DNA of 64,000 nucleotides from Parapedobacter composti. GTDB taxonomy: Bacteria; Bacteroidota; Bacteroidia; Sphingobacteriales; Sphingobacteriaceae. A program made the position numbers and the translations under genes. The notes beneath the pieces are model-generated. The model had not been told where the DNA came from and searched no databases. It saw nothing but the letters and a program-made list of their open reading frames with translations. The stretch lies in the NCBI RefSeq assembly GCF_900112315.1, contig NZ_FOLL01000007.1:1-64000 (forward strand). The letters run 5' to 3'. This document shows positions 918 through 58,636 of the stretch, piece by piece (position 1 is the stretch's first letter; each line of letters starts with the position of its first letter).

Positions 918-944
918 AATCATCAGAAGTTATGTTGTTCAGGA

Positions 945-1529: not shown

Positions 1530-1603
1530 GCTATAGAGAATTAACCGGTACAAACTTGGCTATCACGTTTGATCTTATTGCAAGTCAGTGATTAATTATT
1601 TGT

Positions 1604-1611
1604 TAATTTTG
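1604..1611 (+). promoter_or_regulatory. -7 promoter element (TAATTTTG)
   Basis: TAATTTTG fits the Bacteroidota -7 consensus TAnnTTTG and points toward the PiT-like gene at 1745. That would give a leader of about 130 bases, which contains a run of seven C and a short GC-rich patch (1630-1660). I tested this patch for known riboswitch motifs and recognised none. Confidence 0.35.
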
Positions 1612-1744
1612 TATGTAGAATTATGAGCCAGCCCCCCCGGTGAAACCCCGAAGGCAGCCGGAAAAACATAACACAATAGTAACCTATTCGTAATCGCCAG
1701 CAGACATTAATTAAGTTTCTTGCATAGCAACTTATATCAACTGC

Positions 1745-2704: not shown

Positions 2705-2811
2705 AACCTCCTGCCCTTTCATAGGCGAAAGGACGTCTCTCCCCGAACTGGCGGTGATGGGGACGCGCGGCAAAGGACTAAGATATATGAACAAAGTTTT
2801 ACAGCATCATG

Positions 2812-3657: not shown

Positions 3658-3744
3658 GGCGCCGGGTCCCTATTGTAACGGTGAAGAAGGCAAAAAAGTA
3701 CTTATCTTTATCACAGATCGAATAAAAAGGAACGGGCCATCAAC

Positions 3745-4680
3745 ATGAAAGCAAAAAAACAGATGAAAGCAGTTATTTGTACAAGATACGGTTCGCCTGA
3801 AGTTTTACAACTGCAGGAAATAGCTAAGCCCGTTCCGAACAGCCATCAAATACTTGTCAAAATTGTCGCAACTGCCGTTAATTCGGGAGATGTAAGGGTT
3901 AGGAGTCTTGATGTCAACGGGTTTATGAGGATTATTATGCGCCTGGCTTTAGGGATTTCAAAACCAAGAAAACCAATTCTGGGCACGGTATTTTCGGGTG
4001 TTGTTGAAAAAGTTGGAAAAAACGTATCCAAATTCAACGTCGGAGACCGCGTATTCGGGATGACGGGGTTTACGTTCGGCACGTATGCGGAATACATCGC
4101 TGTACATCAAAACAGTAACGTAATCGAGATGCCGAATAATGCAACGTACGAAGAAGCCGCAGCTATCGTCTTTGGCGGGCAAACAGCCATTCATTTTTTG
4201 GATAAAGCGGGGATAGCTGGGAGGCCAAACCCAAAAGTCCTGGTTATCGGTGCTACAGGTTCCGTCGGCACAGCAGCCATCCAGCTGGCAAAGCATCACC
4301 ATGCCGATATCACAGCCGTTTGCAGTGCCGAAGGAATCGGGCTGGTGAAAAGCCTGGGAGTAACCAACATTATGCGCTACGACAGTGCGGACCATACCAG
4401 GCAGACAGATAAGTTTGACATCATCTTTGACGCAGTGGGCAAAACGCGCAAAAATGAATGGAAACACCTACTGAACAAAAATGGCGTGTACAAAAGCGTG
4501 CGTACGGGATATGCTTCCGAAACCATACAGCAACTGATGTTGTTAAAGGAGCTATTTGAAAACGGAAAATATAAAGCGGTAATCGGCAAGACCTTTTCCA
4601 TGGACGAGGTAGTGGAGGCGCACCGATACGTAGACACAGGCCGGAAAAAGGGAAATGCCGTTCTGAGAATCAGCGAATGA
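3745..4680 (+). CDS. NAD(P)-dependent MDR-family alcohol dehydrogenase / quinone oxidoreductase
   Basis: A 311-residue medium-chain reductase. An N-terminal GroES-like domain (MKAVICTRYGSPEVLQLQEI) is followed by a Rossmann fold with the nucleotide-binding glycine motif GATGSVGTAAIQLAK near residues 169-183. I see no cysteine-rich structural zinc site and no classical catalytic zinc ligands, which points to the zinc-independent quinone oxidoreductase branch. The C-terminus (FSMDEVVEAHRYVDTGRKKGNAVL) is typical. It sits seven bases upstream of an AraC regulator, so the two are probably co-transcribed. The true substrate is unknown. Confidence 0.88.
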   Translation: MKAKKQMKAVICTRYGSPEVLQLQEIAKPVPNSHQILVKIVATAVNSGDVRVRSLDVNGFMRIIMRLALGISKPRKPILGTVFSGVVEKVGKNVSKFNVGDRVFGMTGFTFGTYAEYIAVHQNSNVIEMPNNATYEEAAAIVFGGQTAIHFLDKAGIAGRPNPKVLVIGATGSVGTAAIQLAKHHHADITAVCSAEGIGLVKSLGVTNIMRYDSADHTRQTDKFDIIFDAVGKTRKNEWKHLLNKNGVYKSVRTGYASETIQQLMLLKELFENGKYKAVIGKTFSMDEVVEAHRYVDTGRKKGNAVLRISE

Positions 4681-43517: not shown

Positions 43518-43585
43518 CTGACCGTTAAATGCGTCAACCATCATTTTTTTCGCCTTAGAGGTTTTCAAAATTCATTTTTTTATAG

Positions 43586-43593
43586 TACGTTTG
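43586..43593 (+). promoter_or_regulatory. -7 promoter element of tRNA-Ser (TACGTTTG)
   Basis: TACGTTTG fits TAnnTTTG and ends 14 bases before the tRNA 5' end. Confidence 0.5.
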
Positions 43594-43607
43594 CACTCGC
43601 AAAAAAC

Positions 43608-43694
43608 GGTGAGGTGCCTGAGAGGCCGAAAGGAACAGTTTGCTAAACTGTCGTACTGGAAACGGTACCGCGGGTTCGAATCCCGCCCTCACCG
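43608..43694 (+). tRNA. tRNA-Ser (anticodon GCU)
   Basis: 87 bases with acceptor arms GGTGAGG (43608-43614) and CCTCACC (43687-43693), discriminator G, anticodon loop TTGCTAA closed by CAGT/ACTG, a long variable arm (TCGTACTGGAAACGGTACCG), and a T arm CGGGTTCGAATCCCG. CCA is not encoded. It marks the left edge of the accessory region. Confidence 0.97.
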
Positions 43695-43717
43695 CAACCA
43701 GCGAATCAAAAAATATC

Positions 43718-43753
43718 AAAACCCTATAAACAGCGCGTTTATAGGGTTTTTTC
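43718..43753 (+). terminator. intrinsic terminator of tRNA-Ser
   Basis: AAAACCCTATAAAC (43718-43731) and GTTTATAGGGTTTT (43737-43750) form a perfect 14-bp stem with loop AGCGC, followed by TTC and TTTT. Confidence 0.92.
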
Positions 43754-44015
43754 TTTTACATAAACATCTTGATTTAAGCTGTAAAAAGGAATATAATTGT
43801 TTGCCTGATTATTTCTAACAACTTGTGGGCACGTTGTGAACTAAATACCGATAGATTTTCCAGTTTTGCCATTCACCAATTCAATATGCATCATGGCAGT
43901 AGAAAAACGCGATCCGGCGGCTTTTGTATTAGTAAATTATGGCTAGTTACTAAATAAAGTTAACTTTGAGCAGCTTTTGCCCTCCGATAACCGGGGCACT
44001 TCAAAAAAACAATAA
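43754..44015 (+). promoter_or_regulatory. leader of the defence operon, with promoter TAACTTTG
   Basis: This gene-free stretch between the tRNA-Ser terminator and the helicase ATG is AT-rich. It holds TAACTTTG at 43961-43968, a perfect -7 element about 48 bases before the start codon. No -33 TTG at the ideal spacing stands out. Nothing else is recognised in it. Confidence 0.5.
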
Positions 44016-47000
44016 ATGGCAGTCGAAGTAGGACAAATCGTCAAGAACTTAAACCCCGGCGAGCCGGTGACGATCAATCAAATCCAGGCACTGGGCACCA
44101 TGGTGTCCCTGAAATACACCGGCATCAATACCAACAAGGTAAACACCAAAGTGATTTCAAGGGAGCAGTTCGAAGCTCTGGAGGTTCTTGCCGACGAAGG
44201 ATCGTTCAATTTCAGCGGAGACCCTACCCGGTTTGCGCTTTACGCCGAAGCGGAGCGCATCAACTCCGCCTACCAGTTCGATCCACTATTTGCCGTCAAT
44301 TGCAGTATCGTAGATCCATTGCCTCATCAGGTTGAGGCGGTGTACAAATTCTTGTTGCCGCTGCCGCAGATACGTTTTCTACTTGCCGACGATACCGGCG
44401 CGGGAAAAACCATCATGACGGGCCTGCTCATCAAGGAGTTGATGATGCGGGATTTGGTCGAGCGTGTACTGATCGTCACGCCCGGAGGGCTGACCAAGCA
44501 GTGGCAGGAAGACGAGATGGGGATGAAGTTCGGCATCCCCTTCACGCTGGTCAACCGCAGCCTGTTTGCGGCAGACCCCAACGTTTTCCACACCACGCCG
44601 CGGATTGTCACATCCATCGACTTTGTCAGCCGCGATGATGTCCTGAATGTGGTGAGCAATTCGCATTGGGATTTGGTCGTATTTGACGAATGCCACAAGC
44701 TTTCGGCATACGACTACGGCATGAAGCAGTATGCCTCCAGGCGGTATAAGGCCGCGCATACACTCTCGCAGCAATGTGAACACCTGCTGCTGCTCACGGC
44801 CACGCCGCACCGCGGCAGGAAGGATACGTTCAAGAAACTCCTGCAATTGCTGGACGAGGATATCTTCGCGACCGAGGATCTGGCCGCCACCCGGATCAAG
44901 GAATTGGAACATAACGGCATCAATAAGTTCTTTATCCGCCGTTTGAAGGAGGATATGAAAGACTGGAACGGCCAGCCGCTGTATAAAAACCGCTATACCA
45001 AAACGGTGGCCTATCAGCTCACCCCCGAAGAAAAAGAGCTGTACGATGCCGTCACCAGATACCTCACCAAACGCAAGGAGGAAGCCTCGCAAAGCAAAAA
45101 CATCCACGTATCCCTGGCGCTCACCGTCATGCAACGGCGCCTGGTGAGCTCCATTTTCGCCATAAAGAACACCTTGGAAAAGCGATGGAAAGCCTTGCAG
45201 GGTATCGTGGACGAGGTCTCCAAAAACCCGAACCTCTGGAACCAGCGGCACAAACTGGAAGCGTTCGATGTGGACGACATCGACGATTATGACGAACTGG
45301 AAGACGAAGAGCGTGACGCGCTGGAGAATATCCTGGCCGACCCGCGGAAGTTCAAGTTGTTTACCACGGCAAAGAGCCTGGGCGAAATCCAGCAGGAGGC
45401 TACCGAGGTGAAACGGTTGTACGAGATGGCACAAAGCCTCTACAACCGGCAGCAGGAGGAGAAAAAGTTCCAGGAGCTTCAGGAGTTGCTCAAGTCCAAT
45501 GGCGTGTTGGACCAGGGGGAAAAGCTGGTCATTTTCACCGAACACAAGGACACGTTGTTTTACCTCGAAGAACGGCTTTCCAAAAGCGGCGGATATCGCG
45601 TAGCCACCATACACGGTGGGAAAACGGTCGACGAGCGCAGGCAGGCCCAGTGGGATTTCGCAAAACCTGATACCCAGATCCTGATTGCTACCGATGCCGC
45701 CGGCGAGGGCATCAACCTGCAGTTTTGCCGGTTGCTCATCAATTGGGATATCCCATGGAACCCGAACCGCTTGGAACAGCGCATGGGCCGCATCCACCGT
45801 TACGGTCAGAAACAGGACGTCCTGGTCTTCAACATGGTGGCGAGCAATACCCGCGAGGGTAATGTGCTGAGGCGCCTGTTGACCAAACTTGATGTTATCC
45901 GCGAGAGCATGGGCGACGACCGCGTGTACGACGTCATCCAGGATGTGCTGGAAGGCGTGGGACTCGATGACATTATCGAATCTGTGTTCAACGGCCGGGA
46001 AACCGATCTTGACAGTTTCCTCGCCCAAGATACGGAAGTATTGAAATTGAAGTTTACCGAAAAGATAGCCGAACAGAAAGACAAGCTGGCCCATAGTGTC
46101 GTCGATTTCAGGGACGCGCGGATATTGAAAGAACATTCCGACGAAAAGCGCCTGCAACCCATATATATCCGGTTGTTTTTTGAGAAGGCATTCAAAAGCC
46201 TTGACGGCTCGTTCACCCAGGTCCGGCCGGACATCTACCGTATCGATAGCATGCCCGAGCGGGTGGCTGCCGAACTAAGGACCACCTACAACATCCATTT
46301 CGATGCCATCAAGTCCATCCTGTTTTGTTTTGACAAACAGGTATTTCTCGACTACCAGCTTGTGGCCGATTTGGGGAAGGTACATTACATCAATCCGGGC
46401 AATCCCGTGTTCGATAGCCTGGTTGCGGTCATTCGTCGGGAATACCGGGAAGATATGATCAAAGGAACCATATTAATTTCGCCCGATGAAAAAGAGGATT
46501 ACTTTGCTTTTTTTGTAAAAAGCCAAATTGTGGACAACCGGCCAAACAAAGGGGAAGACAGCATCGCCGATGAGCGATTGCTATTGGTGAGCCAGTCACA
46601 TGATAGGCAGTTTCGCATCACTTCGCCTGCCAAGTTCATCGACCTGCACGCACCGGCAGCATTCGCAAAACCCGTAACCCCGCCACCTGTACAGCATATC
46701 GATGACGTTGTGCAATGGAGCTTCCAGCACGTCACCCTTCGGCAATTCGACGATACGCAAGCCCACGTACAGAAAGATACCGAAGACCGGAAACGCTACC
46801 TCGAATCGGCTTTTTCACAGGTTATCATATCCCTGCAAGCAGAGATACAGGAACTGCAGACAAAGATGCTGTACGGAGACACGAAGCTCCAGGATAAAAT
46901 ATTGAAGAAACAGGAGCGTATCAACGCATTGATCCAAAAGAAAGCCGGCAGGCTGGAGCGTCTGGGGTTGATGACCCAGCTCAGCCCCAAGGCTCCCGAA

Positions 47001-47483
47001 ATACTGGGTTGCGCCTACGTGTTACCCCTCTCACAGGTGGAATACAACGGGCATTATGGCATGAGCCGCGACGACGAGGCCGAAGCGATAGCCATGCAGA
47101 CGGCCATGGCGTATGAACGCAGTGCGGGCTGGAGGCCCGAAGACGTGAGCGCCAACAACGAAGGGTACGATATCAAGAGCATCAGCCCGGATGAGCTCAA
47201 ACGCTATATCGAAGTAAAAGGACGCAGCGGTGCCGATGGCAGCATCATGCTCAGCGAAAACGAAATGAACCGATTGGCCCAGCTGGGCGATTCCGCCTGG
47301 CTATACATCGTGCTCAACTGCAAGACCAGCCCAGAGTTGTTCCGGTTGCAGAACCCGGCCAGGACCCTGAGGTTTGAGTTAAAAACCAAAGGCATCCAGT
47401 ACTTTTTGCCCATGGCAGAGTGGAAAGGAAAAAGCGCGCTGCATGAAACGAAAATACTTGGTAGCTTTGCCGACAATGATTAA
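44016..47483 (+). CDS. SNF2-type DEAD/DEAH helicase with C-terminal DUF3883 (defence operon gene 1)
   Basis: An 1155-residue protein. Walker A ADDTGAGKTIMTG (GAGKT near residue 128), DECH box near residue 224, motif III LLTATPHRG, helicase C domain with IHGGKTVDERRQAQ, ATDAAGEGINLQ and QRMGRIHRYGQK (near 588), a coiled-coil stretch near 930-990, and a C-terminal DUF3883 nuclease-like fold (EGYDIKS...YIEVKGR, about 1050-1070). This architecture occurs in DISARM DrmD and in the helicase of helicase-methyltransferase-ATPase defence systems. DUF3883 has restriction-endonuclease-like D...ExK residues (D in GYDIKS, E-V-K in YIEVKGR), so it may cut DNA. Its stop overlaps the next gene. Confidence 0.9.
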   Translation: MAVEVGQIVKNLNPGEPVTINQIQALGTMVSLKYTGINTNKVNTKVISREQFEALEVLADEGSFNFSGDPTRFALYAEAERINSAYQFDPLFAVNCSIVDPLPHQVEAVYKFLLPLPQIRFLLADDTGAGKTIMTGLLIKELMMRDLVERVLIVTPGGLTKQWQEDEMGMKFGIPFTLVNRSLFAADPNVFHTTPRIVTSIDFVSRDDVLNVVSNSHWDLVVFDECHKLSAYDYGMKQYASRRYKAAHTLSQQCEHLLLLTATPHRGRKDTFKKLLQLLDEDIFATEDLAATRIKELEHNGINKFFIRRLKEDMKDWNGQPLYKNRYTKTVAYQLTPEEKELYDAVTRYLTKRKEEASQSKNIHVSLALTVMQRRLVSSIFAIKNTLEKRWKALQGIVDEVSKNPNLWNQRHKLEAFDVDDIDDYDELEDEERDALENILADPRKFKLFTTAKSLGEIQQEATEVKRLYEMAQSLYNRQQEEKKFQELQELLKSNGVLDQGEKLVIFTEHKDTLFYLEERLSKSGGYRVATIHGGKTVDERRQAQWDFAKPDTQILIATDAAGEGINLQFCRLLINWDIPWNPNRLEQRMGRIHRYGQKQDVLVFNMVASNTREGNVLRRLLTKLDVIRESMGDDRVYDVIQDVLEGVGLDDIIESVFNGRETDLDSFLAQDTEVLKLKFTEKIAEQKDKLAHSVVDFRDARILKEHSDEKRLQPIYIRLFFEKAFKSLDGSFTQVRPDIYRIDSMPERVAAELRTTYNIHFDAIKSILFCFDKQVFLDYQLVADLGKVHYINPGNPVFDSLVAVIRREYREDMIKGTILISPDEKEDYFAFFVKSQIVDNRPNKGEDSIADERLLLVSQSHDRQFRITSPAKFIDLHAPAAFAKPVTPPPVQHIDDVVQWSFQHVTLRQFDDTQAHVQKDTEDRKRYLESAFSQVIISLQAEIQELQTKMLYGDTKLQDKILKKQERINALIQKKAGRLERLGLMTQLSPKAPEILGCAYVLPLSQVEYNGHYGMSRDDEAEAIAMQTAMAYERSAGWRPEDVSANNEGYDIKSISPDELKRYIEVKGRSGADGSIMLSENEMNRLAQLGDSAWLYIVLNCKTSPELFRLQNPARTLRFELKTKGIQYFLPMAEWKGKSALHETKILGSFADND

Positions 47484-50400
47484 TTACACAATGACCCCAC
47501 CCAAAAAACTCATCGAAGTAGCCATGCCGATCAAAGAGATATCGGCCGAAAGCGTGCGGGACAAGTCCATACGCCACGGGCATATCAGTACGCTGCACCT
47601 TTGGTGGGCGCGCCGGCCGCTGCCTGTATGCCGGGCGGTGGTTTTCGCCAGTTTGGTGCCGGACCCACTGGACGAAAACTGCCCGCAGGCTTTCCGGGAC
47701 GCAGTGGAGATGCTATTGGGTAATCAGGCCGAACAAATCGACTACTACGCACCCTATAAGGACATTCCCTGGACATCTGTATATGATCCGATGGAGGATA
47801 ATCTCCGTAATCGGCTGCAATTGTTTATCGGCAAATTCACGGACGAAATGCAGCAACATTTGCTGTATCATAAGCCAAAGCCTGCTGCGGGTAAGCAGAT
47901 AGCCGACAGCAGCCTTATCAAATGGGACAACAAAAACAACGAAAAAATCATCAACAAAGCCCGCAAGCTCATCTGGGTGGCTCATAACAGCAAAGAAAAT
48001 ACCGGCGCTACGGCAAATGATCTATTGGCCAGCTTTGACGACCACTACAAAGCCATAAAAGACGCCGAAAAAGCGCTATACCGCCTGCCCGACCGCCACA
48101 TCGAAACCGAACAAGTGCTGCAGGCCACGGCCAACTTACAGCGGGCCATCGATGCGTTCCTCGATAAAATGCCCCGTGTTTTCGACCCATTCGCCGGTGG
48201 CGGCGCCATCCCCCTGGAAGCGGCACGATTGGGCTGTAGAAGCTACGGCAATGACATCAACCCGGTGGCGCATATCATACAGAAGGGCAGCCTGGAGTTC
48301 CCGCAGAAATACGGCAAACCCATCAGTTACAGTAAGACGGAGTTCATCAAGCTGTACGGGCAGGATACCTGGGACAAGTTGAGTGGCAGCCAATTGGTCT
48401 ATCAAAATGGTGAAGCCATCGGGGCGAAGATTGACAACAGGCTCAGTTTCGATGTCGCTTTTTATGCAAGGAAACTTCTCAGCGAAGCGGAAAAGGAAAT
48501 CGGACACTACTATCCCGCCGATACAAAAGGAGGCAAACCCATCGCCTACTACTGGGCACGGGTCGGCACCTGCAGCAATCCGAGCTGCAAGGCGGAAGTG
48601 CCCTTGCTGAAAGGGTTTTATCTGGCCAATACCCAAACCAAGCAAGTCTATCTGCACCCTGTTATTAACGGGAAGCAAATTGATTTTGAGGTTAGGCATG
48701 GGAAATGTGATTTGGATGGATGGAATAATAGAGGTAATTTGAAATGCCCTTTTTGCGGCAGCATCACTGATGTCAAGCAAATTAAACAGCAGAATATTAA
48801 CGGCGGCTTAGGAGAAAGATTGTTAGCTATTATTGTCGATGGACAACACGGCAAAGAATACCGATTGCCCACTCTTTCTGAAATTGCTTCTGCGGCTATT
48901 ATTCCTACTGTCGAAAGACCCACCGAAAAAATGCAACGCAACTCTGCTGGTGGAGATACATTTAGTTGGGGCGTAACGGAATGGGGTCAAATGTTCTCCC
49001 CCCGCCAATTGCTGGCCCTGCAAACCCTCGTGCAAAAGCTGCAGGAAATAAAGGCCGCGTTGCAACCCGATAAGGACGATTATGCCAAAGCTGTGGTAAC
49101 GTATTTGGGGATTTTGTTAGACAGGGTAATTTTATCCAACACCTCGTTTGGTAGATGGCACAACGGACGTGAAACACTTGAACACCCTTTTGCGAAACAA
49201 GCAATTCCCATGATATTCGATTACCCGGAATCAAATATGTTTTGTAACTCCACGGGTAGTGCATATAATCAACTGGAATGGCTCACCCGGTACATTGAAT
49301 CGGAATCAAATTTTCCATTCGCATCCAAAATGCAAAATGCGAGCAGCGGGGAGAAAAACCAGTTCGCTGAAAAATACCTAACTGCAGTGGTTACTGACCC
49401 ACCGTACTATGACGCCATCGCTTACGCTGATCTGTCCGACTTCTTTTATGTATGGCTTAAAAGAACTTTAGGAGATGTATACCCGCTCAACTTCGCTACG
49501 CCGCAAACGCCAAAAACGGAGGAATGTACGGCGTTAAAACACCATCACAGCAACAGCAAAGACCGGGCTAAAGCGCATTTTGAAGACAAGCTTACCCAGA
49601 TTTTCGACGCCATAGAGCACCAAACATCCGATATTGTGAGCATCATGTTTGCCCACCAAAGTACCGCCGCCTGGACTACGCTATGCAACTCTATCCTCGG
49701 TGCACGGATGAACATCACCGGGTCGTGGGCCATGGATACAGAAATGGCCAATCGCAGTTTAGGTCTGGCCGGGGCTGCGCTGGAATCTTCCGTCACCGTT
49801 TCCTGCAAGCCTTCCCAGCGGGAAGGCTTTGGTAGCTACCGCGAGGTGAAGCGCGCCATCGAACAGACCGTGGCCATAGAGGTAGAGATGCTCTACAAGT
49901 TGGGCTTTCGCGGAGCGGACCTGCTTACGGCCTGTTTCGGCAAGGCGGTGAGCGAGTTCGGAAAATACCAGCGTGTGGAAAAGGCCGACGGCAGCGAGGT
50001 GTCCGTGGCCGAGCTGCTGGAAATGGCCCGCGAAGCGGCATTCAATGCACTGCTCAAAGGGTTTGACGGCGATGACGTTACCAAATTTTATATCGGCTGG
50101 CTACAGCTCTTCGGTTTTGCCGAAAGCGATTTCGACGACGCTGCCAAGTTCAGCCGGGTCGGCCTGAGCATCAATGTGGACGAATTGTTCAGGCAGCATA
50201 TCCTCATCAAAAACGGCAATAAACAAACGCTGGGTACCTATGAGGAGCGCATAATGGCGAGCAAAAGTCTGGGAGATAAAGCCGGCGGCAACCTGATCGA
50301 CCTGGTGCACCGTGCCATGATGATGTATAAGGGTAGCGACCGCCAGGCACTGTTGCGCTATATCAACGAGCGGGCATCACAGCCGGATGGCAACTTCTGG

Positions 50401-50550
50401 CGGGTACTCACCTCGCTCTGCGAGGTGCTGCCACAGGGAAGCGACGATTACAAACAGGCCAGCGGCCTGCTGGCCAACAAAGACAGCCTCATCCGGGAGA
50501 GCAAAACGGTACAGCAACCCGCCGTGGAACAAACGAGGTTATTTGAATAG
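47476..50550 (+). CDS. DUF1156-type adenine-specific DNA methyltransferase (defence operon gene 2)
   Basis: About 1024 residues. DUF1156 N-terminus (PKKLIEVAMPIKEISAESVR, then KSIRHGHISTLHLWWARRPL), AdoMet motif I VFDPFAGGGAIPLEAARLG near residue 237, two zinc-ribbon-like Cys pairs (TCSNPSC and KCPFCGS), and catalytic motif DPPYYDAIAY near 641. It probably methylates adenines to mark self DNA. I use the ATG at 47476, which overlaps the helicase stop; 47491 is possible. Part of the middle (about 48640-49000) is visibly richer in A+T than the rest. Confidence 0.9.
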   Translation: MINYTMTPPKKLIEVAMPIKEISAESVRDKSIRHGHISTLHLWWARRPLPVCRAVVFASLVPDPLDENCPQAFRDAVEMLLGNQAEQIDYYAPYKDIPWTSVYDPMEDNLRNRLQLFIGKFTDEMQQHLLYHKPKPAAGKQIADSSLIKWDNKNNEKIINKARKLIWVAHNSKENTGATANDLLASFDDHYKAIKDAEKALYRLPDRHIETEQVLQATANLQRAIDAFLDKMPRVFDPFAGGGAIPLEAARLGCRSYGNDINPVAHIIQKGSLEFPQKYGKPISYSKTEFIKLYGQDTWDKLSGSQLVYQNGEAIGAKIDNRLSFDVAFYARKLLSEAEKEIGHYYPADTKGGKPIAYYWARVGTCSNPSCKAEVPLLKGFYLANTQTKQVYLHPVINGKQIDFEVRHGKCDLDGWNNRGNLKCPFCGSITDVKQIKQQNINGGLGERLLAIIVDGQHGKEYRLPTLSEIASAAIIPTVERPTEKMQRNSAGGDTFSWGVTEWGQMFSPRQLLALQTLVQKLQEIKAALQPDKDDYAKAVVTYLGILLDRVILSNTSFGRWHNGRETLEHPFAKQAIPMIFDYPESNMFCNSTGSAYNQLEWLTRYIESESNFPFASKMQNASSGEKNQFAEKYLTAVVTDPPYYDAIAYADLSDFFYVWLKRTLGDVYPLNFATPQTPKTEECTALKHHHSNSKDRAKAHFEDKLTQIFDAIEHQTSDIVSIMFAHQSTAAWTTLCNSILGARMNITGSWAMDTEMANRSLGLAGAALESSVTVSCKPSQREGFGSYREVKRAIEQTVAIEVEMLYKLGFRGADLLTACFGKAVSEFGKYQRVEKADGSEVSVAELLEMAREAAFNALLKGFDGDDVTKFYIGWLQLFGFAESDFDDAAKFSRVGLSINVDELFRQHILIKNGNKQTLGTYEERIMASKSLGDKAGGNLIDLVHRAMMMYKGSDRQALLRYINERASQPDGNFWRVLTSLCEVLPQGSDDYKQASGLLANKDSLIRESKTVQQPAVEQTRLFE

Positions 50551-50553
50551 CAT

Positions 50554-51666
50554 ATGGCAAAAGATTTAACCAATTCGGTTGTAGACCGGAAAAACATCCT
50601 CAACAACAATTTTGCGATACAAGAGGTGTATCGGCAAATCGGGTTTTATGGCATTAAGTATGACGGTAAATACCGTTTTACGAAACAACAGGTAGCCAAT
50701 TATTTTGAAGTTGATATCCGGACGATTGAACGGATCGTGGAGGCTCACAAAGAGGAAATCACGGAAAGCGGTTATGAAGTGTATACCGGTGCTCAACTCA
50801 AAAAATTCAAAGATACAATTACGCATTTTATTAATGAAGTAAGGCATCGCGATGTTCCCGACACCGATGTCGGGAACATGCCGGAAACCCCGGAAGATCG
50901 GCAGGCCGTTGCTAACTTCTTTGAAGAGGAACTGGATAATCTCTCCAGAACACCGCAATTGTCCGTATTTACCTACAAAGCGTTCCTAAACATAGGAATG
51001 TTGTTAACCGGGTCTGAGAAAGCACAAGAACTCCGTTCTGCCATATTGGATATCGTCATCGATGTACTAAACCAAAAAATCGGGGGAAAAGCCAAATATA
51101 TCAATCAACGCGAAGAGGAATTTCTGCCAAGCGCTATTCGGGAGTACAACTATCGTAAAACGTTCACCGATGCATTGGATAATTACATCACGGAGAATAA
51201 ATTCAAGTATGCACAATTGACAGATAAAATCTACAAAGCGGTTTTCAAGGAAAATGCCAAGGAGTATCGCCAGATTTTACAGCTGAACGCCAAGGAAAGT
51301 GTAAGAAGTACCATGTATGCCGAAATACTGGATTTAATAGCCGGATATGAGAATGGCTTTTCGGCACTTTTGAAAGAGGAATCTGAAACAAACGGCAGGA
51401 AACTGACACTCTCCGAAGCGCACAAATTGTTCGCCAAATACGAAAGTCTAACACAGGCGACATTGACACCTTTGAGGGAAAAGGCCAGAAGCCTGATGGC
51501 AAGCAGGGACTTGGCTTTTAGGGATGCCTTGCACGAAAAGCTAAAGGACTACATCAATGAAGTCAGCGCCGAAGACTATGAGAAATTTATCGGGGAACGG
51601 AGCATGGATCTAGAAAAACGGCTGGAAGAAAACAGGGATGTCTTTAGGCGCTTAAAAGATAGATAA
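50554..51666 (+). CDS. HTH protein paired with the Fic protein (defence operon gene 3)
   Basis: A 370-residue protein. A winged-helix-like start (YRFTKQQVANYFEVDIRTIE, about residues 37-60) is followed by an all-helical body; proteins of this kind often sit directly before a Fic/Doc gene. It starts three bases after the methyltransferase stop and ends one base before the Fic gene. An in-frame 12-bp perfect inverted repeat lies at 50852-50879. G+C is clearly lower here than in the helicase gene, suggesting a separate origin for genes 3 and 4. I infer it acts as the regulator or antitoxin of the Fic protein. Confidence 0.75.
   Translation: MAKDLTNSVVDRKNILNNNFAIQEVYRQIGFYGIKYDGKYRFTKQQVANYFEVDIRTIERIVEAHKEEITESGYEVYTGAQLKKFKDTITHFINEVRHRDVPDTDVGNMPETPEDRQAVANFFEEELDNLSRTPQLSVFTYKAFLNIGMLLTGSEKAQELRSAILDIVIDVLNQKIGGKAKYINQREEEFLPSAIREYNYRKTFTDALDNYITENKFKYAQLTDKIYKAVFKENAKEYRQILQLNAKESVRSTMYAEILDLIAGYENGFSALLKEESETNGRKLTLSEAHKLFAKYESLTQATLTPLREKARSLMASRDLAFRDALHEKLKDYINEVSAEDYEKFIGERSMDLEKRLEENRDVFRRLKDR
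50852..50879. repeat. 12-bp perfect inverted repeat (REP-like) within a coding sequence
   Basis: ATGTTCCCGACA (50852-50863), loop CCGA, TGTCGGGAACAT (50868-50879). The hairpin is in frame and encodes DVPDTDVGN. TCCCGA/TCGGGA hairpins of this style occur as REP-like elements in Bacteroidota. Confidence 0.7.
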
Positions 51667-51667
51667 C

Positions 51668-52153
51668 ATGGCGTATAACTATTTCGAAACGGACTATGCC
51701 ATCCGCATCCACGATAAAATCATCGAAATATCGGGAGGTAGTCCGGGGATCAAGGATTTTGGAAATATAGACAGTCCGCTAACACACATTCAAAACGACG
51801 ATTATTATCCGGAGTTTGAAGATAAAATTACACACCTGATCTTCTCTTTCAATAAATTCCACGCTTTTAACGATGGCAACAAACGGACTTCAATAGCTTT
51901 GGGTGCTTTTTTCCTGGAAATAAATGGTTTGGGTGGCTTTGTAGATAAGTTTATCATCGAGATGGAAAACATTGCTGTCACGGTAGCCGACAATATTATC
52001 GACAAAGAACTGCTCCAGGAAATTGTCGCCGCTATCATCAACGAACCCGACTATAGCGAAGCATTGAAGCTGAAGATAGTCGACGCTTTGTTACAGGTCG
52101 ACCACAAAAAAGAGACGTTGAATCTCGGAAAAGGTTTTTACAAGGATTTATAA
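51668..52153 (+). CDS. Fic/Doc-family protein (defence operon gene 4)
   Basis: A 161-residue protein with the complete Fic/Doc active-site motif HAFNDGNKRT starting at H65 (HxFxDGNKR). Doc-type proteins transfer phosphate or AMP to target proteins and act as toxins, held by an antitoxin. The pairing with the HTH gene one base upstream and the small size fit the death-on-curing class. Its place inside the helicase-methyltransferase-ATPase operon suggests an effector or fail-safe role, which is an inference. Confidence 0.85.
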   Translation: MAYNYFETDYAIRIHDKIIEISGGSPGIKDFGNIDSPLTHIQNDDYYPEFEDKITHLIFSFNKFHAFNDGNKRTSIALGAFFLEINGLGGFVDKFIIEMENIAVTVADNIIDKELLQEIVAAIINEPDYSEALKLKIVDALLQVDHKKETLNLGKGFYKDL

Positions 52154-52169
52154 GTAATCATAAAACCAT

Positions 52170-55100
52170 ATGAATATCACCAGCAGCCAACAGGAACAAC
52201 TCTATAAAGCCTTCGGACTATTTATCGAAGCGTTTCGGTTTTATGTCGTGGAAGTGCTTTCCAAGGAATTTGGCGACAAATGGCCCGCCGCTTTTGTGGA
52301 TGCCCTGTACCCGGCACAGCGCGAGAGCTGGAACCTCGGATTGAAGTCGGGTTCTTCTCCCGATGCGCTGATCGACTTCCAGTACCTCAAACCGTTTGCA
52401 TTGAAACATAAAGACCTACTGAAAAAGGATTTCGGCAGGGATACCAACAAACTGGCTACCCGGCTGGAAACCATCTACGACACCCGCAACAAGCTGGCCC
52501 ATTTCCAGAGCATCACGGGCGACGAGTTTACCGAGACGTTCATCCAGATGAAAAGCATCGCCCGCGCTTTATCCATGGAAGAGCTCGAGCAGGAGCTCCA
52601 GGCGTTGCAGCATGCCGAGGAATCCACCCAAAAACCTGCCGTAAAAACAACCGCAGCTTTGCCGCATGAAGCCGCGCCTTGGTTTATGACCGTAAAGCCG
52701 CATGCCGATATCCGGCAGGGAAGGCTGGATGAGTCCGTCTTCGCGGCCAACCTCGCGGAAGTCGCGCTGGGCAACGGCCGGGAAGTATATAACAACCACG
52801 TGGTCTTCTTCGAAAAAACCTACTTCACCGCAGGGTTGAAAAACGTTGCCAAGACCGTTATCAAAGGCCTGAACGGCACGGAAGATGCTGAAAATCGCGT
52901 CATCAGTCTCCAAACCGGCTTCGGCGGCGGAAAAACGCACACCCTGATCAGCCTTTACCATATCGCGCGCCACGGAACGCTACTCGCCCAATCTTCCCAT
53001 GCCGAAGACCTGCTGGCCTATACGGGCATACCCCGGTTTGAAAAAGCCAATATCGCCGTATTCACCAATACCACCAACGATCCGGCCAACGGTCGGCGGG
53101 TGGCCGACGACCTGACCATCAACACCATCTGGGGGGAAATAGCTTACCAATTGGGTGGCCGGGAAGGTTATGAGATCGTACGCAAAAACGACGAACAGCT
53201 CATCGCTCCCGGCGGATTGTTCAAAAAGGTGCTTGCTCATGCCAAACCGGCCCTCATCCTCGTGGACGAACTGGCCGACTACTGCGTGAAGGCCGCAGCA
53301 CGGACGGCGGGGAACAGCAGTTTGGCCGACCAGACCATCAGCTTTATGCAGGAGCTCACCGAAGCGGTAGCGGGCACCGAAAACTGCGTGGCGGTCATCA
53401 CCCTGCCCGCCAGCCCGCAGGAAGTTGGCAATACGCCCGAAGCACAGGCCATATTGAGCAGCTTGCAGAAACGGGTAAGCCGGGTGGGCGCCGATACGCA
53501 GCCCGTAGCAGACGACGAGATCTATGAAGTCATCCGCCGTAGACTGTTCGAGGATATCGGAGACCCCCAAATAATTGAAGCGGTAGTGTCCAGGTACATG
53601 GACATGTACCAGCAATACTGGACAGAACTGCCACCCAATGCAAACAAGGGTGAGTACAGGCAACGCCTGTTAAAATCATACCCCTTCCATCCGGAACTGA
53701 TCGATGTGTTCCGGGTGCGGTGGGCCAGCAATTCGGATTTCCAGCGCACAAGAGGAGTGCTGCGGTTGCTGGCTGCTATCGTGAGCGACCTGTGGAAGCG
53801 GCAGCAGTCCTTGCCGGGTGGCAACCTCCTGATCCATTCCGGCCAGATCAACTTCGCCAACCTGGATGCCTTGAGCGGCCAACTGAAAAAACTGTACGGA
53901 AACGGCTATGATGCGGTAATTTCAGCAGACGTCTCCGGATCCTCGTCAAACGCATTTAAAATCGATGAAAACAAGTACGACTACGGCCAGTGGAATCTCA
54001 CGAAATCCGTAGCATCCGTGATCCTGTTGAATTCGTTTGGCAGCGAAGGGAGCAACAAAGGCATCTCCGTCGCCGAGCTGAAATTGAACCTGCTGGTGCC
54101 GGACGGCTTCAACCACAACAGCATAAACGGCGCATTGGATGAACTGGAGAACAAGGCCTATTACCTTTACTATGCCCAAACCGGAGGTAATGGCAAGCGG
54201 TATTGGTTCCACACCAAACCCAATATCAATATCCTGATCAACCAGGCAAAATCAGACGTCACGCCGGCAGACATCGATGCCGAAACCATCCGCCTGATCA
54301 AGCAGCGTACGGCAAACCGCATCCAATTGTTCAACACGATCGTGGACCCAACGGAAGACATGCCCGAACAACTGCGGCCTACCTTGATCATCCTGTCACC
54401 CAAGCACCTGTCCAACGGCGGACTGCATCGCGATACCCAGAAATTCATCGAGAAAATTGCCACAAAAAAAGGCACCAGCGAACGGATTTACCGGAATACC
54501 ATGCTTTATCTCGTAGCCACGGAAATCGGCATATCGAAACTGCAATCCGCTATCCGGGAGTACCTCGCCTGTGCGAAAATACACCAGGACTACGGAGGCC
54601 AGCTGGAACCCGAACAAAAATCAGACTTGCGCAAGCGGATGGAAGAAGCCCAAAAGCAATCCGAAGTCGCGCTTGCCGCCGCGTACTCGAATGTCATCAA
54701 ACACTCCACGAAGCATGGCACCGAAATCCTCGCCATCAAGCAATTCAAAGACAGTCTGGACAGCCAGATCAACACCCATATCATCGGCACATTAAAAGAC
54801 GAGGAATGGTTGCTGGAGAATGTCGGACTCGGCACGCTCCGTGCAAACAACCTGCTGCCCACCGTAGATAGCCCGATAAAGGTAAAAGACGTGTACGAGG
54901 CATTCGTGCGGTTCGACGACAAGCCCATGATCGTGGGCAAAGAGGCCGTATCCAGGAGCCTGCAAAAATACTGCACACACGGAGAACTCGCCATCGCCAG
55001 CGGTGATGGAAAAAAATTCACCAAAATCTATTACCAGGAAAACGTGCCGTTCCTCGATGCGGACGACGTAACGCTTTGGCTCGTAGACAAAAGCCTCGCG

Positions 55101-55472
55101 GTGAAGCACGAAGCCGATTCACCCGTTGCACCCATCCCGCCCCAAACGGTGACCGGATCAGCTAATATCGTCGGTGAGCATCCCCCCAATGTAATATACG
55201 GCAGTGAAACCAAAAACGAAGGCAGTGTCCCATCACCGACGCAGTTTAAGTCGCTAGTGATTTCCGGCAGGGTGCCCTCGGTAGACGAGTATACCAAATT
55301 GTTTAATTATTTCATCGCACCCTTCGTCATGAACGGAAATAAGGTCGAGATCGACGTGCGTTTCAGGATCAAATCCACGGCCGCTGGTCCATTGACTGAA
55401 AACATGATCCAGTACAAGTCCGCAAAGGAAGCTGCGAGCCAATTAGGGCTTGATTTTGAGGAAGAGGAATAA
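52170..55472 (+). CDS. DUF499 AAA+ ATPase with HEPN-like N-terminus (defence operon gene 5)
   Basis: An 1100-residue protein. The N-terminal ~140 residues resemble the Swt1-type HEPN domain with R106-N-K-L-A-H111, an Rx4H motif. The DUF499 ATPase follows with Walker A TGFGGGKTHTL near residue 250 and Walker B ALILVDELADY near 365. The C-terminus (VISGRVPSVDEYTKLFNYFI, then MNGNKVEIDVRFRIKSTAAG) is typical of the family. It lies 16 bases after the Fic gene. In Hma-type systems the ATPase works with the helicase and methyltransferase in restriction of phage DNA; HEPN RNase activity is possible but not shown. Confidence 0.88.
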   Translation: MNITSSQQEQLYKAFGLFIEAFRFYVVEVLSKEFGDKWPAAFVDALYPAQRESWNLGLKSGSSPDALIDFQYLKPFALKHKDLLKKDFGRDTNKLATRLETIYDTRNKLAHFQSITGDEFTETFIQMKSIARALSMEELEQELQALQHAEESTQKPAVKTTAALPHEAAPWFMTVKPHADIRQGRLDESVFAANLAEVALGNGREVYNNHVVFFEKTYFTAGLKNVAKTVIKGLNGTEDAENRVISLQTGFGGGKTHTLISLYHIARHGTLLAQSSHAEDLLAYTGIPRFEKANIAVFTNTTNDPANGRRVADDLTINTIWGEIAYQLGGREGYEIVRKNDEQLIAPGGLFKKVLAHAKPALILVDELADYCVKAAARTAGNSSLADQTISFMQELTEAVAGTENCVAVITLPASPQEVGNTPEAQAILSSLQKRVSRVGADTQPVADDEIYEVIRRRLFEDIGDPQIIEAVVSRYMDMYQQYWTELPPNANKGEYRQRLLKSYPFHPELIDVFRVRWASNSDFQRTRGVLRLLAAIVSDLWKRQQSLPGGNLLIHSGQINFANLDALSGQLKKLYGNGYDAVISADVSGSSSNAFKIDENKYDYGQWNLTKSVASVILLNSFGSEGSNKGISVAELKLNLLVPDGFNHNSINGALDELENKAYYLYYAQTGGNGKRYWFHTKPNINILINQAKSDVTPADIDAETIRLIKQRTANRIQLFNTIVDPTEDMPEQLRPTLIILSPKHLSNGGLHRDTQKFIEKIATKKGTSERIYRNTMLYLVATEIGISKLQSAIREYLACAKIHQDYGGQLEPEQKSDLRKRMEEAQKQSEVALAAAYSNVIKHSTKHGTEILAIKQFKDSLDSQINTHIIGTLKDEEWLLENVGLGTLRANNLLPTVDSPIKVKDVYEAFVRFDDKPMIVGKEAVSRSLQKYCTHGELAIASGDGKKFTKIYYQENVPFLDADDVTLWLVDKSLAVKHEADSPVAPIPPQTVTGSANIVGEHPPNVIYGSETKNEGSVPSPTQFKSLVISGRVPSVDEYTKLFNYFIAPFVMNGNKVEIDVRFRIKSTAAGPLTENMIQYKSAKEAASQLGLDFEEEE

Positions 55473-55950
55473 AAGCAATGGAACATTAGAAATGAAGATT
55501 TCGTACAAATATTTAGCCACTAACCAAACTTTATCTGAACAATACACAATGATTTATCATTTAAGTGACGAAATTTGAAAAGAGTGGTTGGGCAGGGCCT
55601 GAATGGTACGTTTTTATAAAGTACTTTTGGTAAACATGGATCGATGAATGCGGCTGGCTGGGCAGGGACGTCGTTGGAACCTGAAACCTTGGTAGCTTTC
55701 TCCCGACTTTTTACTGACTTTCTCCCCACTATCTCCCGCCGTATCTTTGGGACTGCTTTGCCCCTGCTTTGCTTTTTCTTTGGAATTTTGTGGACACGCC
55801 GTGGACCAGCCCAAAGCGGGCCGTGGGAGACGGGGGAATTTGGTCAGAAGAAAGGGGGTAGTTAAGGTGCTGTTGGCATGCTATAAGATTAAGGTTCAAA
55901 AATCAAACATGTAGTTCGTAAGGTGCAATAGGATTATTGATGAAAAATAG
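55473..55950. other. non-coding stretch right of the defence operon
   Basis: No supported gene. Short forward and reverse frames exist but show no family. From about 55690 to 55810 there is a C/T-rich stretch that includes TATCTTTG (a -7-like word). Similar pyrimidine-rich sequence accompanies conjugative elements in this phylum as I recall, but I cannot show it here. Confidence 0.4.
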
Positions 55951-56109
55951 GTCTGTGAACGGCTGAGCTATAAAGAGATTGCCGAAAAGATGCACATTTC
56001 CGAACTCTCCGTTAAGAAACACGTCCAGAACATTTTCGGCAAGGTTCTGGTCAATTCCCGGACGGAGCTGGCAAGAAAAATGAACGACCTGTTGGACAAT
56101 AAAAGATAA
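55951..56109 (+). pseudogene. LuxR/GerE-type HTH fragment
   Basis: 52 codons read VCERLSYKEIAEKMHISELS, then VKKHVQNIFGKVLVNSRTEL and ARKMNDLLDNKR before TAA. This is the C-terminal helix-turn-helix of a LuxR-type response regulator. An in-frame stop (TAG) lies immediately upstream and no receiver or sensor domain precedes it, so it is a remnant of a deleted gene. Confidence 0.7.
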
Positions 56110-56583
56110 ATTTCACCTTCTTTCCCTGTTTTTATTTCGGATATTTTCTTATATTGGCGTTCATTTGGTTGCAATGATGGTTTCTGCCACGACGTTCCTT
56201 GACAGCTGGGCACAGCATGATAGCAATTTATCGGGATATCCGGTTATGTAGCTGTCTGGATATACAGATAGTTGAATAAGCGGATATTACATATACACCT
56301 ATCCCTATAGCTGTATATAGCATCCCAAAAAACCGTTTTAAAGCTATTGGGGAATAACCCCTCTTTTTTGTTTAGTGGTGTGCAAGTTGTGCTTTTGTAC
56401 GTACAGCCCTCGTAACTCGGCCGTACCCACAAAAAGCCTAACTTGCCCCGGAACAGCCCGTCTCCGTTGTCGCGGGTCTGTACCGGGGGAGGAAAAATGT
56501 CGCAACTCCATTTTTCTCCGGGCAGGGGTATTAACAGGCGCAAAATGTGATTGTTCGTGTTTTGTTTGTTTCAGCAGATTATG
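56110..56583. other. intergenic remnant between the LuxR fragment and the toxin-antitoxin pair
   Basis: No supported gene. Around 56220-56320 there are repeated TATA- and GGATAT-like words. At 56349-56369 a 4-bp stem (GGGG/CCCC) precedes six T, a weak terminator. The 56390-56560 part is GC-richer. I interpret the stretch as debris of an excised or decayed mobile element, without a recognised integrase or repeat. Confidence 0.35.
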
Positions 56584-56591
56584 TAAATTTG
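56584..56591 (+). promoter_or_regulatory. -7 promoter element of the antitoxin gene (TAAATTTG)
   Basis: A perfect TAnnTTTG element 17 bases before the ATG at 56609. It decides that start over the longer open frame from 56375. Confidence 0.55.
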
Positions 56592-56608
56592 AAAAAAGGA
56601 TAGTTGTT

Positions 56609-56851
56609 ATGATAGCGGAAGAAATATTGCCAAGCGGAAAATTCACACAGGCTCAATTGGAGTTGCTTAGGATGTTTTCCAAGCAATACCCCGATAAGGT
56701 TTGGGTAGAGGTAAAGGATTTGCTCTCTAAATATTTTATGGAGAAAGCATCCGAAGAAATGGACAACCTATTCGACCAAAAAGGATGGGGAGAGGAAAAA
56801 ATACAGGAATGGGGTTCGGAACATATGCGGACGCCCTACCAATCCTTTTAA
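56609..56851 (+). CDS. antitoxin-like protein, partner of the PIN gene
   Basis: An 80-residue acidic protein (EEILPSGKFTQAQLELLRMF; KDLLSKYFMEKASEEMDNLF) ending HMRTPYQSF. This layout is familiar from Bacteroidota antitoxins that precede PIN-domain (COG1569) toxins and end with a similar RTPY motif. The longer frame starting at 56375 is rejected because the promoter element lies inside it. Its stop TAA shares its last A with the ATG of the toxin frame (TAATG). Confidence 0.75.
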   Translation: MIAEEILPSGKFTQAQLELLRMFSKQYPDKVWVEVKDLLSKYFMEKASEEMDNLFDQKGWGEEKIQEWGSEHMRTPYQSF

Positions 56852-57240
56852 TGGCCTTGCCAACCCGTTCCTCGTATCATAAAATTATACAGGCGTTTAA
56901 CAATCGTCAATTCGAATTGATCATCACCACGCCGATTTTTCTTGAATACGAAGAGATACTATCGGAAAAAGCAAACCCACTTATCGCCAATATTGTACTG
57001 GGTGCTTTCCTCGAAGCTCCAAATGTAATTGCTGTCACTGACTATTACTATTGGGAACTTATCCATGCTGATCCAGATGACAATAAATTCACAGATGCTT
57101 TTCTTAATGGACAGGCAGATTATCTGGTCACAAAGGATGCTCATTTCAATGTGCTAAAAAGAACCGATTTTCCAAAGGTTGATGTTATCTCTCCCGACAA
57201 GTTTTTAGAAATTTTAGAGAAAACCGTTACAAATACGTAA
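56851..57240 (+). CDS. PIN-domain toxin lacking its N-terminal catalytic strand
   Basis: About 129 residues that match the body of COG1569 PIN toxins: TRSSYHKIIQAFNNRQFELI, TTPIFLEYEEILSEKAN, then ADPDDNKFTDAFLNGQADYL and VTKDAHFNVL, which carry the later acidic residues. The first strand, normally MKIVLDTNVLL with the first catalytic Asp, is missing; the frame continues upstream as GTYADALPILLMALP, within the antitoxin gene. A deletion between the two genes, possibly at a shared ACCAAT word, would explain this. The product is probably inactive unless started upstream. Confidence 0.7.
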   Translation: MALPTRSSYHKIIQAFNNRQFELIITTPIFLEYEEILSEKANPLIANIVLGAFLEAPNVIAVTDYYYWELIHADPDDNKFTDAFLNGQADYLVTKDAHFNVLKRTDFPKVDVISPDKFLEILEKTVTNT

Positions 57241-57307
57241 CGGAATAAATTTCTCGGTTTCAAAAATATTGGCTAATATTGCCTCTGTAAGTCAGAAACG
57301 ATGTTTT

Positions 57308-57380
57308 GACTCCGTAGCTCAGCTGGTAGAGCAACTGACTCTTAATCAGTGGGTCGACAGTTCGAACCTGTCCGGGGTCA
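57308..57380 (+). tRNA. tRNA-Lys (anticodon CUU)
   Basis: 73 bases: acceptor GACTCCG (57308-57314) with CGGGGTC (57373-57379, one G-U pair), anticodon loop CTCTTAA in CTGACTCTTAATCAG, T arm GACAGTTCGAACCTGTC, discriminator A, no encoded CCA. It marks the right edge of the accessory region. Confidence 0.96.
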
Positions 57381-57384
57381 CGTA

Positions 57385-57420
57385 AAGGACAGCGCCTTGG
57401 ATGGGGTTGTCCTTTTTTTT
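57385..57420 (+). terminator. intrinsic terminator of tRNA-Lys
   Basis: AAGGACA (57385-57391) pairs with TGTCCTT (57408-57414), followed by a run of T. Confidence 0.85.
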
Positions 57421-57506
57421 ATATCCTCCTGATCTCAATAAGACCAAACAATCTGACTTTTTCTGTGTGTGAAAAGATAGGCAGCGAACATAGCGTGGAG
57501 GGAACG

Positions 57507-57719
57507 ATGAAAAAATGGACAACGGAAATACGAGCTATCGATCCGCTTACGGGTGAATTGGCAACATATGCGGGGCCTTATATCGACGCACCGACTTTTG
57601 AAGATGCCGAGCGTTTCTGCCAAGCCAATGGACTGGGATACTGTAAGGTAATCGGACAACTGGTGGCAGAGGTAGACAAAGTGACGGGCTTGCGGATTGA
57701 TTACGATAACATAAACTGA
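57507..57719 (+). CDS. small hypothetical protein
   Basis: A 70-residue protein (KKWTTEIRAIDPLTGELATY; TFEDAERFCQANGLGYCKV; LVAEVDKVTGLRIDYDNIN) that I do not recognise. The alternating strand-helix pattern suggests a compact alpha-beta fold. The ATG at 57507 is preferred over the frame opening at 57465 because it begins a normal hydrophilic N-terminus. Confidence 0.55.
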   Translation: MKKWTTEIRAIDPLTGELATYAGPYIDAPTFEDAERFCQANGLGYCKVIGQLVAEVDKVTGLRIDYDNIN

Positions 57720-57850
57720 AACAACGAAAGCAGATTAACTTGGCCTGCTCTGAAAATTTTTCCATCTTTAAACCGTGGAAACTGGACGGGGCTTTTCAAC
57801 ATGGATAACCCCATAAGGTTTCGGCATTACTACATATTGTTGTCTTGATA

Positions 57851-58636
57851 ATGAAAATAGCAACCTATAATGTCAACAGCATCAATGCCCGGCTCCCGGT
57901 CGTACTTCGCTGGCTGGAAGAAACCCAGCCGGATGTCGTATGCCTGCAGGAACTCAAATCCATCCAGGAAAACTTCCCGGAGACTGCCCTGCTGGACGCA
58001 GGCTACGAATCCATCTGGCATGGGCAAAAAAGCTGGAATGGTGTAGCTATCTTATCACGCATCGGGAAACCGGAAGAAATCTGTAGGGTACTCCCGGGAG
58101 ATCCGGAAGATGCGCATAGCCGTTATATCGAAGCCAAAGTCAACGAGGTAACTATCGGCTGCCTGTATTTACCCAACGGCAACCCCGCTCCGGGGCCAAA
58201 GTTCGACTACAAACTCCGTTGGCTCGACCGGCTGATTGCACATGGGCAATCCCTTCTGACTCAAAACACGCCTGTGATATTGACAGGAGATTTCAACGTA
58301 ATTCCCACAGAAATAGACGTGTACAAGCCTGAACGCTGGGTTGATGATGCGCTTTTCCGGCCGGAAACCCGCGCCGCGTTCAACAGACTGGTTGCACAGG
58401 GGTGGACCGATGCCATCAGAAGCCTCTACCCTGATGAAACCATCTACACGTTCTGGGATTACTTCCGCAATGCTTTTGGCCGTAATGCTGGCCTGCGCAT
58501 TGATCATTTTCTGCTGAGCCCTGCTGTGTTACCGCGGCTACGTGCCGCCGGCGTAGACCGCCATGTGCGGGGATGGGAAAAGACCAGTGACCACGCCCCG
58601 GTGTGGATTGAGCTCCAATCCGGCTCACCGACTTGA
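57851..58636 (+). CDS. xth: exodeoxyribonuclease III
   Basis: A 261-residue EEP-fold nuclease: MKIATYNVNSINARLPVVLR, the catalytic Glu in VCLQELKSI, GDFNVIPTEIDVY, RIDHFLLSP and the terminal TSDHAPVWIEL. It removes nucleotides from 3' ends and cuts at abasic sites in base-excision repair. ATG at 57851 is preferred over 57845. Confidence 0.95.
   Translation: MKIATYNVNSINARLPVVLRWLEETQPDVVCLQELKSIQENFPETALLDAGYESIWHGQKSWNGVAILSRIGKPEEICRVLPGDPEDAHSRYIEAKVNEVTIGCLYLPNGNPAPGPKFDYKLRWLDRLIAHGQSLLTQNTPVILTGDFNVIPTEIDVYKPERWVDDALFRPETRAAFNRLVAQGWTDAIRSLYPDETIYTFWDYFRNAFGRNAGLRIDHFLLSPAVLPRLRAAGVDRHVRGWEKTSDHAPVWIELQSGSPT

Follow-up and report, generated by a model that had tools for sequence, protein, structure and literature searches.

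A predicted Swt1/Abi2-type HEPN RNase domain in front of the BrxC-like ATPase HmaC in an Hma defense operon of Parapedobacter composti

The DUF499 ATPase HmaC of Parapedobacter composti, encoded at 52170-55472 on the forward strand of the 64,000-nucleotide stretch of DNA analyzed here (the window) and, with 1100 amino acids, the product of the final gene in a run of five, begins with what appears to be a true HEPN-type domain for cutting RNA, its active-site residues being intact. Sequence and structure prediction taken together are best explained if residues 1-147 (52170-52610, forward strand) form a competent HEPN RNase that is tethered by a linker to a BrxC-like ATPase and activated by pairing, providing the Hma operon with a second output; this overall reading we consider probable. 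Neither the HEPN-DUF499 fusion nor an RNase or suicide output is new, as two papers from 2013 (PMC3710099) and 2026 (PMC12839542) illustrate. The fusion is common in bacteria, and HmaC of the window is a good but ordinary example of it. Its significance lies in the fact that a widespread, little-tested defense family probably acts on nucleic acids in two ways, with the helicase-nuclease cutting DNA and the ATPase cutting RNA.

By its sequence, the operon at 44016-55472 is a restriction-type defense operon of the Hma (Type-1 BREX-related) kind. HmaA, HmaB and HmaC are all encoded on the forward strand and are recognized by PADLOC with E-values of 2e-204, 8e-146 and 4e-147, respectively. The order of the five-gene run is HmaA, HmaB, PDC-M59A, Fic/Doc and HmaC, and it is flanked by genes for tRNA-Ser (43608-43695) and tRNA-Lys (57308-57381). 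HmaA (44016-47483; Pfam, PADLOC) is a Swi2/Snf2 helicase with a C-terminal NOV_C domain (Pfam, E 4e-21), i.e., a nuclease-type domain of the PD-(D/E)XK kind, which appears intact given that D1052, E1066 and K1068 are conserved in 55 of 55 sequences. HmaB (47443-50550; Pfam, PADLOC) is a DUF1156 N6-adenine methyltransferase. Helicase, DUF1156 methylase and DUF499 ATPase are common to the window and to the Type-1 BR/Hma systems described in PMC12839542 and PMC8565338, and no difference in kind is apparent. Of 395 genomes from the phylum, 30 gave HmaC-related matches at E 1e-10; within the family, the only one of 399 genomes to contain such a match is that of the window. Hence, the operon was probably acquired by transfer. 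No convincing direct repeats were detected around the island.

The preliminary description of this DNA had pointed to R106-N-K-L-A-H111 near the N-terminus of the ATPase and had noted a resemblance of the surrounding region to Swt1-type HEPN. The motif is indeed present in the translation of 52170-55472, where it is the one R-x(4-6)-H within residues 1-143. As such, the bare pattern is weak evidence for a HEPN domain: it occurs at least once in 22% of 10,000 shuffles of these residues. The Pfam profile PF18731 (HEPN_Swt1), however, matches residues 13-135 over all 115 profile positions with 61.4 bits (E 1.2e-16), well above its curated cut-off of 27.5 bits. An AlphaFold2 model of residues 1-147, calculated from an input alignment of 50 sequences, is all-helical (mean pLDDT 96.2, pTM 0.89; helices 5-44, 48-59, 64-67, 70-79, 81-110, 117-133 and 137-147), and the fold check that had been suggested earlier returned a HEPN fold. 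The top VIA-align match of this model is the HEPN domain of yeast Swt1 (4pqz; Z 9.6, rmsd 2.9 A, 120 residues), followed by AbiF (8vz6; Z 8.6, rmsd 4.0 A, 147 residues), although both scores lie under the caution level of about 13 below which matches between helical bundles are possibly accidental. Further down, HEPN or Csm6 chains (2hsb, 6tug, 5yjc, 4nqf) are interspersed with unrelated helical chains, among them an acyl-CoA dehydrogenase (Z 7.1) that ranks between the HEPN rows. Plain Foldseek against the PDB and viral structures gave no match at E 0.001 or better. In a sequence search of the PDB, the HEPN profile found a colicin best (E 0.0044) and HepS weakly (E 0.45), none of which was used, and phmmer with full-length HmaC found no matches. 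The HEPN assignment is made because profile, fold and motif agree, the VIA Z-score alone being possibly accidental. A coincidental R-x4-H in a helical domain of another kind, as the frequency of the motif in shuffled sequences and the Foldseek search alone would allow, is contradicted by the profile score, the fold match and the invariance described below, and its probability is negligible. Classification as Swt1/Abi2-type is supported by sequence and model.

For an estimate of conservation, relatives were collected independently of the HEPN domain: the genome scan employed an alignment of 11 HmaC sequences and the peptide patterns FGGGKTH and WGELAxQL of the ATPase core, and the best 80 of 572 relatives were taken. 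With loci from preceding searches and four plasmid loci added, the set amounted to 129 loci, in which profiles derived from the proteins of the window gave ORF matches to the core in 116 cases, to the HEPN profile in 91 and to both in 74. One of the latter (L031) is a copy of the window and was left out of all counts, so that 73 proteins including that of the window remain. In the plasmid records, such proteins are labeled "Swt1 family HEPN domain-containing protein". The 73 HEPN domains have a median pairwise identity of 34%, and the well-filled columns that do not vary among them are just three, D69, R106 and H111. R106 (codon CGC, 52485-52487) and H111 (CAT, 52500-52502) delimit the active-site motif R106-N107-x3-H111 (52485-52502), which is located at the end of helix 81-110, and D69 (52374-52376) directly precedes helix 70-79. 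Residue 107 is N in 67 proteins, H in four, D in one and I in one, so that 72 of 73 carry one of N, H and D, in keeping with the R-phi-xxxH pattern that PMC12373285 quotes. Among 17 HEPN_Swt1-like matches without DUF499 fusion, the aligned R is present in 15 and the H in 16, whereas D69 is found in only six; D69 therefore marks the HmaC version of the domain. A HEPN-bearing HmaC missing R or H was not found among the 73, a sample of best-scoring relatives beside which rarer degenerate forms may exist. Profile, fold and this strict conservation of the site thus bear out the Swt1-type claim. The two outcomes named beforehand as refuting it, a different fold and unconserved R and H in homologues, did not occur.

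Based on these sequence and model data, the HmaC HEPN domain is very likely catalytically competent. The RNase interpretation put forward in the preliminary description is supported as a prediction, and an RNA-degrading output would follow from it. The domain could instead be a non-catalytic module for RNA binding or self-association, as proposed for eukaryotic Swt1, considering that among solved structures the yeast Swt1 domain is closest in fold and that the eukaryotic Swt1 HEPN is regarded as inactive in PMC3710099. A binding module, however, would not need both R106 and H111 to be kept in 73 of 73 proteins, and a degenerate copy was not seen in the sample, which renders a non-catalytic role improbable.

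Anantharaman et al. (2013; PMC3710099) listed the HEPN(Swt1)-DUF499 fusion of the Ava_2192 type as active, described the conservation of Swt1-like HEPN domains as "partly conserved" and reported an operon that comprises a SNF2 helicase with DUF3883 nuclease as well as restriction-modification (R-M) components. The window shares with this type the N-terminal Swt1-like HEPN domain on a DUF499 AAA+ protein and the helicase-nuclease operon with R-M components, but has in addition PDC-M59A and Doc between methylase and ATPase. The second comparison concerns the AbiF/Abi2 toxins, since AbiF is the second-best structural match and its motif RNQCAH resembles RNKLAH of HmaC. The toxicity of the C. difficile AbiF depends on R202 and H207 within this motif (PMC12373285). 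The same source describes AbiF as a stand-alone toxin with an associated ncRNA, whereas the HEPN domain of HmaC is fused to an ATPase. In 43000-58000 of the window, no abiF RNA reaches the Rfam gathering score, which only two tRNAs do, and an undescribed RNA would escape this search.

Behind the HEPN domain, residues 148-168 (52611-52673) form a flexible linker. In a model of full-length HmaC (mean pLDDT 84.0, pTM 0.52), pLDDT is below 50 at 151-166, a disordered stretch which the AAA+ core follows. The spacing between HEPN domain and core ranges from 19 to 43 residues (median 38) in 71 proteins, L098 being excluded due to a core start misplaced by a split match. The BrxC/ORC-like AAA+ core (DUF499) and the C-terminal domains are encoded at 52674-55472 (Pfam, PADLOC, VIA), with DUF499 covering residues 313-961 in Pfam and the PADLOC HmaC profile (E 4e-147) residues 169-1096. 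Walker A (GGGKTH, 252-257) and the Walker B position (D366 E367) are found, and G252-H257, D366 and E367 are invariant in a 22-row alignment. With 210 bits against a cut-off of 1200, the NCBIfam equivalog NF042962 (DUF499_antiphage) is not assigned, and HmaC of the window thus belongs to another DUF499 subfamily. VIA aligns HmaC 169-681 with BrxC 1-551 (9zll, Z 16.6; 9zdx, Z 15.7) in the same AAA+ fold and domain order, and ORC/Cdc6 proteins rank lower. BrxC has no HEPN domain in front, its residue 1 aligning with HmaC 169; hence, HmaC is a BrxC-type ATPase to which a HEPN domain has been added N-terminally. This match from residue 169 onward agrees with the earlier notion of an ATPase switch carrying a fused RNase.

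How such a switch might operate is suggested by the two components. HEPN proteins commonly homodimerize, and the active site of AbiF lies in a groove of its dimer (PMC12373285). For BrxC, PMC13326643 reports N-terminal AAA+ domains that dimerize on ATP, a C-terminus that dimerizes constantly and higher assemblies in response to DNA. Since HEPN RNases act as dimers and the AAA+ domains of BrxC pair, pairing of the HEPN domains may be the means by which the ATPase activates the RNase. Foreign DNA would load the HmaC ATPase, ATP would pair its AAA+ domains as it does in BrxC, and the two tethered HEPN domains would thereby meet and complete the RNase site, upon which the active dimer would degrade cellular or phage RNA. 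RNA cutting would then represent a second layer beside DNA restriction by HmaA. By this analogy, activation through ATP- or DNA-driven pairing is a serious possibility, and we tentatively propose that HmaC unites sensor and effector in one chain, its BrxC-like AAA+ region acting as an ATP- and DNA-gated dimerizer for the RNase. According to PMC13326643, the AAA+ domains of BrxC pair back-to-face and full-length BrxC is constantly dimeric. How the back-to-face arrangement would accommodate a HEPN dimer of two-fold symmetry is not obvious unless the flexible linker permits it, and the HEPN domains may, like full-length BrxC, be dimeric all the time. No statement on ATP-gated HEPN pairing was found in the literature searched, the scope of which did not extend to preprints and most subscription papers. 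The BrxC structures of 2026 make the question of whether the ATPase turns the RNase on directly approachable.

The RNase may also be real and aimed at phage RNA or at transcripts on restricted DNA, helping to clear the infection with the host not being killed. The fusion of the site to a BrxC-like ATPase, which would deliver it to foreign DNA, and the retention of the DNase in HEPN-less operons are compatible with such a target. HEPN RNases of defense systems, however, usually cut host RNA and stop growth. AbiF is toxic as well (PMC12373285). Such a host-sparing action is rather unlikely. In PMC12839542, which reports HEPN in 1370 of 2446 Type-1 BR taxa, the domain is proposed to be a last-resort suicide effector.

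Returning to the RNase as a second output of the operon, its gain and loss among relatives are informative. On a tree of 112 HmaC cores (quick method, SH-aLRT), 73 proteins carry the HEPN domain, 35 lack it and four with truncated start (L004, L021, L109, L119) have no assigned state; L085, with its HEPN domain in a separate frame, was set to HEPN by hand. The HEPN label needs six changes on this tree, and the starred branches force at least four gains or losses. HEPN distances correlate with core distances (Mantel r 0.953, 72 proteins with L085 excluded, 0 of 999 permutations as high). Hence, HEPN domain and core have been passed on together, with occasional loss of the former. Within Prevotellaceae, the HEPN domain is present in L070 and missing from the closely related L073 and L074; here, about 1.0 kb of L070 stands opposite about 0.1 kb of L073, between flanks of alignable DNA. 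The nearest neighbor of L070 is L064 both for the HEPN domain and, among HEPN-bearing proteins, for the core, an affinity that fits a loss of the domain in L073 and L074. As a separate observation, a short frame that by eye appears antitoxin-like is located on the reverse strand within 9600-10030 of L070, between HmaB and HmaC, in the stretch missing from HEPN-less L073.

Throughout the sample, the HEPN domain is all-or-none: either its motif is intact or the domain is absent. This pattern argues that the domain is retained for the sake of catalysis. We read it as the signature of a costly catalytic output that would be either live or deleted, which is also its meaning if the AAA+ region indeed gates dimerization. 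The domain is optional for the Hma operon and constitutes an added layer, because operons lacking it have the helicase nuclease just as those carrying it do. NOV_C occurs in some helicase ORF of every locus counted, irrespective of HEPN. Compensation for a lost DNase by the HEPN domain was considered and rejected, as NOV_C is found in 40 of 41 helicase ORFs with visible ends at HEPN loci and in 11 of 12 at the others; the two exceptions (one in L072, one in L117) are pieces of broken helicases of which the other piece has NOV_C.

HEPN-less HmaC proteins with visible core start have an N-terminal extension of more than 60 residues in one case only, L022, where a DUF499 ATPase (730-3879, reverse strand) carries a Schlafen AlbA_2 domain (PF04326, E 5e-21) in place of HEPN. 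This single sequence suggests that HmaC may be able to accept various effectors at its N-terminus. AlbA is not mentioned in the main text of PMC12839542, and among seven genomes of the L022 family only that of L022 itself has the AlbA_2-DUF499 fusion. Apart from HmaC, stand-alone proteins of about 434 amino acids with the motif RTLWAH are encoded in L029 (628-1929, reverse strand) and L030 (1477-2775, forward strand), and that of L029 combines HEPN_Swt1 with an FHA domain (Pfam).

Hma operons frequently accommodate extra genes. The interval between HmaA and HmaB holds GmrSD in L050, AbiEi/AbiEii in L051, an AAA_21 ATPase with a second gene in L066, a 1496-aa ORF with a weak Sacsin match below cut-off in L046 and, on a Thermus brockianus plasmid (L049, 4548-5723), a Fic protein of 392 amino acids with the motif HPFLDGNGR, different from that of the window. 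A gap of more than 300 bases separates HmaA and HmaB in 31 of 39 HEPN loci vs two of 11 HEPN-less ones (Fisher p 0.0004), and HmaB and HmaC in 16 of 50 vs six of 21 (p 1.0); any such gap is present in 32 of 39 vs four of 11, some gaps possibly being helicase or methylase pieces broken in assembly. A tie between HEPN presence and embedded cargo is not claimed, considering that the tree offers only three supported independent pairs and the sign test is not significant. That one defense system can be nested in another, e.g., Septu in Hma, has been published (PMC12255303).

In the window, the embedded cargo consists of the PDC-M59A protein (50554-51666, forward strand) and PDC-M59B (51668-52153, forward strand), which together match the PADLOC candidate PDC-M59 as adjacent genes (E 6e-102 and 2e-31). 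The former, which we take to be RhuM-like, has no match over threshold in Pfam and NCBIfam. The latter is a Fic/Doc protein with the motif HAFNDGNKR (PF02661, E 5e-13; TIGR01550 DOC_P1, 52.6 bits at a cut-off of 38.65). HEPN toxins silenced by AMPylation exist, and in HEPN-MNT pairs a tyrosine is the residue AMPylated. As the pair immediately precedes HmaC within the same gene run and a different Fic protein occurs in the Hma operon of T. brockianus, Doc might modify the HEPN domain or form a toxin-antitoxin unit with it. The matching place in HmaC has no such tyrosine, the residues after H111 being F112 and Q113. Of 395 genomes from the phylum, 33 contain PDC-M59A matches. In 18 of the 30 loci fetched, window included, a Doc ORF like that of the window lies next to the match as a separate gene; the flanks, covered over about 1.5 kb in either direction, contain Hma genes at the window's locus only. 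At the sole locus with identified flanks, L140, the pair has a DNA methylase on one side and a ResIII helicase on the other. Conversely, the profiles of the window's PDC-M59A and Doc genes match no other HmaC locus searched. Control of the HEPN domain by the pair is very unlikely on these grounds, and a specific functional link between them was rejected, the pair recurring without Hma genes in the fetched flanks and being absent, by profile, from the other HmaC loci searched. It looks like exchangeable cargo. RhuM-like and Doc genes have been seen in loci of other HEPN proteins, for which a three-level arrangement of R-M, HEPN and Doc or RhuM was put forward (PMC3710099); Fic, RhuM and Doc are absent as whole words from the main text of PMC12839542.

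Two further observations concern the region downstream of the operon. The stretch 55950-56110 would, by eye, encode the terminal portion of a LuxR-type helix-turn-helix regulator; a full gene is not evident, and the stretch is a possible gene remnant. Directly downstream of the operon, an ORF with a PIN_3 domain (56785-57240) is preceded by a small ORF (56375-56851), and the two perhaps form a toxin-antitoxin pair.
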